Shown piece by piece: positions 25,168 through 28,626 of a DNA stretch of 64,000 nt. This DNA is from Planctomycetota bacterium (lineage in GTDB: Bacteria; Planctomycetota; Planctomycetia; Gemmatales; Gemmataceae), in assembly GCA_016195405.1 (NCBI GenBank), contig JACPZP010000020.1, positions 1 to 64,000 on the forward strand, read 5' to 3'. The notes below the pieces were generated by a model, which had not been told where the DNA came from, searched no databases, and saw only the letters and a list, made by a program, of their open reading frames with translations. The position numbers and the translations under genes were made by a program. Numbering within the stretch: position 1 is the stretch's first letter; each line of letters begins with the position of its first letter.

Positions 25168-25605
25168 ATGTTCGCGATCAAAACCATCTTGCATCCCACG
25201 GATTTCTCACCGCGGTCCCAGGCGGCGTTTGAGATGGCGTGTTCCCTGGCGCGCGAACGCCAGGCGCGGCTTGTATTGCTGCACGTGGTCGAAGTGCCGC
25301 TGGTCGTGCAAAGCGGCGTCATGACGCCTCCGCCTCCGCCGCCACCGGAGGAGGAAAAGAACGCCGCTTGGAGCAAAATCAAAGCCATCAAAGCGCCGGA
25401 CAACTCCATTGCGCTTGATTATCGCGTGGTAATGGGCGACGTGGGAACGTCGATCCTGGACGTCGCCAAGGAAGTCCACGCCGATCTCATCGTTCTGGGC
25501 ACGCATGGCCGCACCGGTCTGAGCCGCCTCCTGATGGGCAGCGTCGCCGAGAAAGTCGTGCGCAACGCGGCGTGTCCCGTGCTTACCCTAAAGACGCCAG
25601 CGTAA
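25168..25605 (+). CDS. Universal stress protein (UspA family)
   Basis: A 145-residue single-domain Usp. It starts MFAIKTILHPTDFSP and has an ATP-binding signature GTHGRTGLSRLLMGSVAEKV (G-2x-G-9x-G-S) near residues 113-132, so it is probably the ATP-binding type. A run of seven prolines at about residues 54-60 (PPPPPPPEEE) interrupts the usual loop and is unusual. Site AAAGGAG lies upstream of the ATG. It sits between PEP synthase and the candidate selenoprotein, all within one probable operon. Confidence 0.92.
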   Translation: MFAIKTILHPTDFSPRSQAAFEMACSLARERQARLVLLHVVEVPLVVQSGVMTPPPPPPPEEEKNAAWSKIKAIKAPDNSIALDYRVVMGDVGTSILDVAKEVHADLIVLGTHGRTGLSRLLMGSVAEKVVRNAACPVLTLKTPA

Positions 25606-25660: not shown

Positions 25661-25921
25661 ATGATCTCCTTTTCTGACTGGTTTGTACCGGCTCTGATCG
25701 GAGCGACTTTCACCCTGCTCGGCGCCGTGAAGATCTACGGCTTATCCAGAGGAGTCGTCGGCGGCGCCGACAAGCCGTTTGTCACGAGACTCTGCGGCAC
25801 GTGACCGACCTGGGAGAGCCGCGGTCTGCGGCTGGGTGTGCCGCTGCTTTTTTTGGCGGTTGGATTGGTCAACCTCGGTTGGCTTGCGTGGGTTCTATGG
25901 TCAGGCAGCTATCAACAATAA
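25661..25921 (+). CDS. Small membrane protein with in-frame TGA; candidate selenoprotein
   Basis: The frame opens with ATG at 25661 (GAGGA site 9 bases upstream), reads 47 codons, meets TGA at 25802-25804, and in the same frame reads 38 more codons to TAA at 25919. Both halves look like one protein: hydrophobic segment about residues 7-28 (DWFVPALIGATFTLLGAVKI), a basic loop, then a second hydrophobic segment about 60-81 (GVPLLFLAVGLVNLGWLAW). The TGA falls in RLCGT-TGA-PTW, giving a CxxU redox-like motif if read as selenocysteine, or CxxC if the codon were TGC. A hairpin with a GGTCT loop lies at the right distance (25817-25833). If TGA is a plain stop, the gene is a 47-residue fragment or pseudogene. 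The redox role and selenocysteine are inference; the frame and hairpin are seen directly. Confidence 0.6.
25817..25833 (+). promoter_or_regulatory. SECIS-like hairpin
   Basis: Directly after the in-frame TGA (12 bases downstream) the DNA reads AGCCGC-GGTCT-GCGGCT, a perfect 6-bp stem with a five-base loop. The loop begins 18 bases after the TGA. From memory, the E. coli fdhF SECIS has the same GGUCU at the same 18-base distance, and bacterial SECIS elements generally need a G within the first two loop bases, 16-37 bases from UGA. The bulged U of fdhF is not present here. The hairpin lies within coding sequence, as in bacteria. Confidence 0.55.
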
Positions 25922-25932
25922 GAGAGAGACAC

Positions 25933-28626
25933 GTGGGAGGGACCGCCCTGAACGATGAGCGCGTGATCCTGCGCGACGGCTCGACGGCACACATCCGCGT
26001 GGCCGGTCCGGACGATGTGGATCGCCTTGGCGCGTTCTTCGCAGGTCTTTCGCCCGAATCGCGGCGCAGCCGATTCTTCTCCGTCGCCCCTCCCAAGCCG
26101 GATTTCGTCGCCACCTTGTGCCGGGACAATGCACGGGACGCCTGCTTGACTTTGATCGTTACGCGCATCCGCGACGGACAATCCCATATCGTGGCGACGG
26201 GATCCTATCTGGCTCTGGACGAGAGCACGGCCGAGGTCGCATTCGCCGTCGATGATTCCCTACATGGCAAAGGCTTGGCCACAGTGCTTCTGGAGCGGTT
26301 GGCCCAGGAAGCCCGCCGTCAGGGATTCGCGCACTTTTGGGCGCTGACGAAGGCCGACAACCGGGCCATGCGCGATGTATTTCTCGAATCCGGCTTCGAC
26401 GTTCAGGAAAAAGCCGAAGGCAACGAAGTCGTCGTCGATCTCGCGGTGCTCCCCAGTGAAGCAGGACAAGCGCGCATCGAAGAACGCCAGCGGCTTGCGA
26501 CCGTGGCGGCCCTCGGACGATTTTTTCGACCCGAATCCGTGGCTGTCGTCGGCGCGTCCCGCGATCCCGAAAGCATCGGCGCCCGCGTGCTTCAGGCCCT
26601 GATTGAGGGCCAGTTTCATGGCCGCATCTTTCCCGTCAATCCGAAGGCGGCCGAGCTGCGCGGCCTGAATGCGTACCCCGCTGTGAATGCGCTGCCCGAG
26701 ACACCGACTTTGGCGATCATCGCCGTGCCTGCCCATGCCGTTCTCAATGTCGTCGATGACTGTGCGCGCCGGGGCGTACGCGCCATGATTATTCTTTCGG
26801 CAGGCTTTGCAGAGGTCGACGGCTCTGGAACGGATCTGCAGCGGCAGCTATTGGAGAAGGTGCGCGGCCACGGCATCAGCCTCATCGGTCCCAACTGCCT
26901 GGGTCTGCTTTCCACGGCGCCGGACGTTCGGCTCAACGCGACTTTCCTAGTGGGCTTGCCGCCGCAGGGCGCCGTGGCGATGTCGTCGGACAGCGGCGCG
27001 CTGGGCGTGGCGCTCCTCTCGGCCACCGAGCACTACGATCTCGGCATCTCCAGTTTCGTCAGCGTCGGCAACCGCGCGGATATTTCCAGCAACGATCTTT
27101 TGGAGTATTGGGAACAGGACGAAGCGACAAAAGTGATCCTTTTGTACCTCGAGTCGTTCGGCAATCCGCGCCGTTTCGCCCGCATCGTCCGCCGCACCTC
27201 ACGGCAAAAGCCCATAGTCGCCGTCAAGGCCGGACGCACCGGGGCCGGTCGCCGCGCCGCCGGTTCGCACACTGCGGCCCTCGCTGCCAGCGAGCAAGGC
27301 GTCGACGCCCTCTTCGGGCAGACCGGCGTCATCCGGGCCGACACGCTCCAGGAAATGTTCGAAATCGGCACGGCCCTGGCGAACCAGCCTTTGCCGAAGG
27401 GCCGCCGCGTGGGCATCGTCACCAACGCCGGCGGCCCCGGCATCCTCTGCGCCGACGCTTGTGAAGCCGGCGGCTTGGAGCTTCCGCAACTTTCCCAGAA
27501 AACGCGCAACCAGCTCGCGGCTTTCCTTCCTCCGACCGCCAGCCTTGCAAACCCGGTGGACACGATTGCTTCCGCGGGCGCCGACGAATTTCGCAAGACC
27601 GTCTCGACGGTGCTTCAATCGGGCGAAGTTGATTGCTTGATTGTCATCTACGTCTCGATCGGCGGACCCTACGTGAAAGCGATTCCAGACGCCATCGCCC
27701 TAGCGGTCTGTTCGGTCCGCGACTCCGCCGCCCGCGACATACCCGTTCTCGCCTGCCTGATGCCCGATCAAAACGTTCACCATCTCCCCATTCGCGATCA
27801 CGACCGCATTCCGTGTTATGCCTATCCGGAAGCCGCCGCCAGGGCGCTCAGCAAGGCCGCGGCGTACGCAAGTTGGCGCTCGCAGCCCGCGAGCGCCGTT
27901 CCGCGCTTCGCGGACATTGATTTTCAGATCATTCGCTCTGTGTGCCGCAAGGCTTTGCACGAGCGCGGCAGCGGTTGGCTTTCGACGGAGGAAACTCGCC
28001 GAGTCCTTTCTCTGCTGCAAGCGCCCTTGGCCCCGGGCGGCGTGGCGGCAACGGCGGAGCTAGCGGTTGACATCGCTCGTCGCATCGGTTTCCCGGTGGC
28101 GGTGAAGCTCGCCTCGCACGAACTCGTGCACAAGACCGAGATCGGCTGCGTCCATCTCAATTTGCCCAACGAAGCCGCGGTCCGGCTGGCATTCAACGAT
28201 ATCGAAGACCGGTTGCAGAGGAGAAATGAGCGGAAGTTCATGGAAGGCGTTCTCGTAGAGCGCATGATCGCCGGCGGCGCCGAAGTCATGATCGGCAAGA
28301 CGCACGACCCCGTCTTCGGCCCGCTCGTCGCCTTTGGCTTGGGCGGCATTCACGTCGAAATCCTCGGCGACGTCTGCTTTCGCGTCACCCCGCTCACCGA
28401 GCGCGACGCCGCCGGCATGATCCGCTCCATCCGCGGCATCAAGCTCCTCGAAGGCTACCGCGGCCATCCCCCAGCCGATTTGCCCGCCCTCGAGAATCTT
28501 CTCCTCCGAATCTCACAGCTCGTCGAGGAGATTCCCGAAATCGACGAGCTGGACTTGAACCCCGTCATCGCATTGCCGCCGGGACAGGGCTGCCGCATCG
28601 TGGACGCACGTGTGCACGTCAAGTAA
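25933..28626 (+). CDS. GNAT / NDP-forming acyl-CoA synthetase fusion (Pat-like)
   Basis: An 897-residue fusion. Residues about 5-165 form a GNAT acetyltransferase (LRDGSTAHIRVAGPDD, with acetyl-CoA loop HGKGLATVLLERLA). Residues about 195-650 are CoA-binding and ligase domains of the NDP-forming acetyl-CoA synthetase family, with phospho-His candidate His446 in GSHTAALAAS. Residues about 680-890 are an ATP-grasp domain (FPVAVKLASHELVHKTEIG). This resembles protein lysine acetyltransferases of the Pat type but with GNAT at the N-terminus, as in actinobacteria. Such enzymes acetylate acetyl-CoA synthetase and other metabolic enzymes. I chose GTG 25933 (AGAGAGAG upstream, 11 bases after the preceding frame); ATG 25897 is an alternative. 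Confidence 0.85.
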   Translation: MGGTALNDERVILRDGSTAHIRVAGPDDVDRLGAFFAGLSPESRRSRFFSVAPPKPDFVATLCRDNARDACLTLIVTRIRDGQSHIVATGSYLALDESTAEVAFAVDDSLHGKGLATVLLERLAQEARRQGFAHFWALTKADNRAMRDVFLESGFDVQEKAEGNEVVVDLAVLPSEAGQARIEERQRLATVAALGRFFRPESVAVVGASRDPESIGARVLQALIEGQFHGRIFPVNPKAAELRGLNAYPAVNALPETPTLAIIAVPAHAVLNVVDDCARRGVRAMIILSAGFAEVDGSGTDLQRQLLEKVRGHGISLIGPNCLGLLSTAPDVRLNATFLVGLPPQGAVAMSSDSGALGVALLSATEHYDLGISSFVSVGNRADISSNDLLEYWEQDEATKVILLYLESFGNPRRFARIVRRTSRQKPIVAVKAGRTGAGRRAAGSHTAALAASEQGVDALFGQTGVIRADTLQEMFEIGTALANQPLPKGRRVGIVTNAGGPGILCADACEAGGLELPQLSQKTRNQLAAFLPPTASLANPVDTIASAGADEFRKTVSTVLQSGEVDCLIVIYVSIGGPYVKAIPDAIALAVCSVRDSAARDIPVLACLMPDQNVHHLPIRDHDRIPCYAYPEAAARALSKAAAYASWRSQPASAVPRFADIDFQIIRSVCRKALHERGSGWLSTEETRRVLSLLQAPLAPGGVAATAELAVDIARRIGFPVAVKLASHELVHKTEIGCVHLNLPNEAAVRLAFNDIEDRLQRRNERKFMEGVLVERMIAGGAEVMIGKTHDPVFGPLVAFGLGGIHVEILGDVCFRVTPLTERDAAGMIRSIRGIKLLEGYRGHPPADLPALENLLLRISQLVEEIPEIDELDLNPVIALPPGQGCRIVDARVHVK

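Follow-up and report, generated by a model that had tools for sequence, protein, structure and literature searches.

The window, the 64-kb stretch of Planctomycetota DNA analysed here, contains a short forward-strand gene between a universal stress protein gene and a gene for a multidomain Pat-like protein (Table 1). Its frame runs from an ATG to a TAA through 86 codons and is crossed by one TGA at codon 48. With the TGA read as selenocysteine (Sec, U), the predicted 86-residue product is MISFSDWFVPALIGATFTLLGAVKIYGLSRGVVGGADKPFVTRLCGT-U-PTWESRGLRLGVPLLFLAVGLVNLGWLAWVLWSGSYQQ, which has two hydrophobic segments. With TGA taken as a stop, gene prediction would yield just a 47-residue peptide. 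TGA is the ordinary stop of 13 of the 37 long ORFs in the window, so the code is not reassigned here. A first-pass annotation had described the 86-codon frame and its TGA, and the positions agree in every detail checked. Its account of the downstream part, a membrane segment running up to the TAA, is also confirmed, with the next start, the GTG at 25933, lying 11 nt past that codon.

Table 1. Features of the locus, in window coordinates.
Feature	Position	Strand	Basis
Universal stress protein (PF00582), upstream neighbour	25168..25605	+	Co-oriented; adjacency not conserved in relatives
Gene of 86 codons for a predicted selenoprotein, with Sec at the TGA of codon 48 (ATG 25661, TAA 25919-25921)	25661..25921	+	Frame, orthologs, alignment
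First membrane helix, residues 4-29	25670..25747	+	AlphaFold model
Lys/Arg-rich loop with conserved GG, P39 and CGTU-P-x-W; predicted cytoplasmic	25748..25819	+	Positive-inside inference, alignment, model
TGA codon for predicted Sec48; a Cys codon in homologues whose genomes lack selA/tRNA-Sec	25802..25804	+	Homologue comparison
Bacterial SECIS-type hairpin: stem 25817-25822 / 25828-25833, loop 25823-25827 (GGTCT)	25817..25833	+	Published rules, fdhF numbering
Second membrane helix, residues 54-85, all coded downstream of the TGA	25820..25915	+	AlphaFold model
Pat-like downstream neighbour: GNAT, CoA-binding, succinyl-CoA-ligase-like and ATP-grasp domains	25933..28626	+	Adjacency not conserved in relatives

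Homologues were sought in 59 relatives, in a phylum-wide set of about 390 genomes and in about 400 genomes from the class. The same gene, with a single in-frame TGA at the same codon, is found in 11 Planctomycetota genomes (the window's own and ten further), which belong to at least seven families as labelled (f1, f3, f10, f60, f65, f73 and f111). In all of these orthologs the TGA lies in the context C/R-G-T/S-(TGA)-P-S/T/D-W. Full-length members share 43-64% identity with the window protein, and the protein is conserved on both sides of the TGA across several species in the 11 genomes. Synonymous changes per site exceed nonsynonymous changes on both sides in most ortholog pairs. By this measure purifying selection acts on the downstream half in most of the pairs. 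The gene is patchily distributed, with matches in just 9 of the 392 genomes of the phylum-wide sample, two of the nine being spurious. Four weak matches (L020, L037, L038 and L047) were dropped on reading, as the motif is absent from them. No homologue was found on viral contigs or plasmids.

Six genomes, five planctomycete and one Verrucomicrobium, carry homologues with a cysteine at exactly the Sec position. The equivalent of residue 48 is Cys in all six of these intact sequences and never Trp or Arg. A single branch of the tree, with support of 97/94, separates the Sec forms from the Cys forms. Ten columns are invariant among 15 full-length members: F17, K24, G27, G34, G35, G46, U/C48, P49, W51 and S53. 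The G709 member, which has Ser in place of W51, was left out of this alignment. The first-pass annotation had proposed looking in relatives at codon 48 and at the downstream half. The downstream half is kept, and codon 48 is TGA in 11 separately assembled genomes and Cys in 6 others. A sequencing error is very unlikely, since these separate assemblies agree on the TGA at this codon.

The host genome (6.86 Mb in 214 contigs, 90% complete) has selA, selB, selC and selD, the genes that the first-pass annotation had suggested searching for. selA is on contig C127 (563 bits), and the tRNA-Sec gene, with anticodon UCA, is on contig C27 (74.8 bits). The N-terminal part of selB is on contig C166 (339 bits), where it runs off the contig; the C-terminal part is at the end of contig C127, adjoining selA. 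The host selB thus appears to be cut by contig breaks. selD is on contig C67 (294 bits), inside a 765-residue frame. In this frame (L022) selD is fused behind a domain that, judged by eye, resembles an NADH-dehydrogenase-like FAD domain. The SelD part reads GGCGSK, and SelD itself looks like a Cys form.

Across the family, the form at position 48 follows the Sec machinery. selA and/or tRNA-Sec is present in 11 of 11 TGA genomes. selA scores above the cut-off in nine of them and is split over two contigs in G044; G590 has tRNA-Sec without selA, and G121 has selA without tRNA-Sec. Neither gene scores above the cut-off in any of the six Cys genomes. A perfect split of this kind among 17 genomes would arise by chance once in 12376, a figure that overstates the case because the genomes are related and because the planctomycete Cys members of stated family all fall in a single one, f4, that mostly lacks selA. 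The association is confounded with phylogeny. As background, 191 of 294 sampled Planctomycetota (about two thirds) have selA. One TGA genome, G284, has two strong tRNA-Sec genes, at C207:368-459 (77 bits) and C85:90747-90838 (73 bits), from a duplication or a mixed bin.

Directly downstream of the TGA is a hairpin, AGCCGC-GGTCT-GCGGCT. It begins 12 nt after the TGA and its loop follows after 18 nt, with the 6-bp stem, loop and spacing that the first-pass annotation had given. Published rules for bacterial SECIS elements specify a loop of 3-9 nt, a stem of 4-16 bp, a G among the first two loop bases, a spacing of 16-37 nt and a minimum free energy of -7.5 kcal/mol or lower (PMC13188914). The window hairpin has a loop of 5, a stem of 6, G as the first loop base, a spacing of 18 and an energy of -9.9 kcal/mol. 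On its own it is not significant (P about 0.1), so its significance comes from the orthologs jointly. A hairpin lies at the same exact spacing in 8 of the 11 TGA genes, against 0.96 expected from synonymous-codon shuffles, in a joint test that treats genomes as independent. Counting the U of UGA as 1, all eight of these hairpins have G at position 23 and seven have U at position 24. E. coli fdhF is described with G23 and U24 at these positions (PMC8659212), and the fdhF element, to which the first pass had likened the hairpin, has nearly the same spacing. Compensatory double changes are seen in 5 of 7 pairs, a result reached in 0 of 500 shuffles; most of the double changes come from the single sequence of G121. 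In G121 the protein differs at this point and has an insertion, but the same place is still taken by a hairpin, of 7 bp and with an unrelated sequence. The strong hairpin of G590 lies further downstream, and those of G284 and G262 are weak or bulged. No hairpin qualifying under the rules was found in the Cys homologues. An Rfam search returned a chance match only.

These observations bear on how the TGA is read. It might be a real stop, leaving a 47-residue one-helix peptide, with the overlapping GTGA starting a 941-codon frame and the downstream half being a relic, or the TGA could be a sequencing error. The GTG overlapping the TGA does open a long frame (25801-28626). However, the conserved frame is the one that runs through the TGA, not the GTG frame, and the adjoining gene is different in every relative. 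Together with the recurrence of the TGA in 11 assemblies and the conservation of a downstream half mostly under purifying selection, this makes a real stop highly improbable. Equally little weight falls on a UGA read through by another route, such as a near-cognate Trp-tRNA or a suppressor tRNA, that would leave a residue other than Sec at position 48. Such a route would have to account for Cys, never Trp or Arg, in the six intact Cys forms, for Sec genes in every TGA genome and for a conserved SECIS-like hairpin. Conserved coding across the TGA, the exchange of Sec and Cys, co-occurrence with the Sec machinery and the conserved hairpin are all established at the level of comparative analysis. 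The sel genes, TGA orthologs and Cys homologues support the selenoprotein reading that the first pass had put forward. We infer that selenocysteine is inserted at position 48, and the window gene very probably encodes a selenoprotein with its TGA read as Sec. SelB and Sec-tRNA(UCA) would bind the hairpin just past the UGA, selenocysteine would go in at 48, and the ribosome would continue through the second membrane helix to the TAA.

The AlphaFold model of the protein (mean pLDDT 80.9) has two long helices plus a short helix ahead of the Sec. The loop between the long helices holds 4-7 Lys/Arg residues and the N-terminus 0-1, so by the positive-inside rule the Sec48 loop is probably cytoplasmic. 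Sec48 would lie in this loop at the cytoplasmic face, near the strongly conserved Gly46, Pro49 and Trp51. Its most likely role would be that of a selenol/thiol redox centre anchored in the membrane, which would reduce a disulfide or a peroxide on the cytoplasmic side; in members that have Cys45, this residue would be the resolving thiol. The Sec/Cys exchange and the CGTU motif fit such a role, and given a selenoprotein we favour it by a modest measure. The CxxU redox pair proposed in the first pass holds for the window protein, which has CGTU, but not for the family. The partner cysteine is not universal: the Cys forms have CX5C, with the second Cys three residues further upstream, and the Sec form of G590 (L046) has RGSU in place of CGTU. 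The latter has no other Cys and is a single-chalcogen variant.

The same selenoprotein might instead bind or carry a soft metal or metalloid in the manner of MerF/MerT, a proposal that competes with the redox role only and that we regard as possible but unlikely. The small size, the two membrane helices, the chalcogen pair in a loop of cytoplasmic type and the flexible partner position (CXXU, CX5C) would suit it. The membrane helices, however, lack a conserved chalcogen. MerT and MerF use Cys pairs within membrane helices. Listed selenoproteins include one for putative mercuric transport (MerT, PF02411, C/SxxU; PMC13188914), likewise a small membrane protein with a spaced chalcogen pair. The window protein differs from it in not matching PF02411 at E values up to 5, in carrying its Sec in the inter-helix loop and in having neighbour genes that are not conserved. 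The lone chalcogen of the G590 Sec member also speaks against metal binding, as does the want of any gene, of any kind, that recurs beside the relatives of the window gene.

The first-pass annotation had placed the gene in an operon with PEP synthase, UspA and a Pat-like GNAT/acyl-CoA synthetase. That arrangement is common to no relative. BLASTP clustering revealed no neighbour gene shared among the 16 loci; the clusters it did give are the antisense frame of the gene (CL1) and the gene in its Cys form (CL2). With no neighbour conserved, the PEP synthase/UspA/Pat-like context is local. We therefore rejected a function based on the operon, as the neighbour genes differ in every relative.

In its in-frame UGA, the hairpin directly downstream with G23/U24 at nearly equal spacing, the presence of selABCD and the Cys homologues in Sec-less species, the window gene resembles fdhF-type SelB/SECIS selenoproteins. 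Unlike them, its small, two-helix membrane product matches no modelled family. Pfam and NCBIfam gave no match at E up to 5 when three TGA forms were searched first; with 11 members, NCBIfam gave none and Pfam and PHROG stray matches only (E >= 0.02). Nothing significant was found in the PDB by sequence, and no significant fold match in a PDB fold library or a viral fold library. The CxxU motif is shared with SelW-like and AhpD-like redox selenoproteins. Those are soluble proteins, no fold or sequence similarity to them was found, and the partner Cys is not universal in the window family. A membrane location with Sec is shared with YeeE/YedE, the SO_0444 efflux transporter and SaoP. These are large transporters, and unlike them the window family has no NCBIfam or Pfam match. 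All three, with motifs GUxSG for YeeE/YedE and UxC for SO_0444, are in an inventory of May 2026 that covers 119 families and subfamilies of prokaryotic selenoproteins, among which we found no identifiable entry for the window family (PMC13188914). Judged against Pfam, NCBIfam, the PDB and this inventory, the protein is of a known kind, a selenoprotein, and apparently of a new family.

This family is likely to consist of minimal two-helix selenol proteins of the membrane, facing the cytoplasm and scattered in Planctomycetota, with a Cys form, its partner Cys re-sited, replacing the Sec form in relatives without Sec machinery. It would add to the 119 families and subfamilies of the 2026 list, and selA is present in about two thirds of the genomes sampled from its phylum. 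Its protein is unusually small for a membrane selenoprotein. The exchange of Sec for Cys, with the partner cysteine at another place, would offer a clean case on why selenium is used. Two copies look irregular. In the TGA copy of G262 (L055/L036), one of the 11, the first helix is not recognisable in any frame; this copy may be decayed, frameshifted, a pseudogene or the product of an assembly indel. A seventh Cys homologue, in the Verrucomicrobiota genome G970 (L060 1371-1742, reverse strand), is split between two frames shortly after GRCPSW, a break that reflects frameshift or decay.
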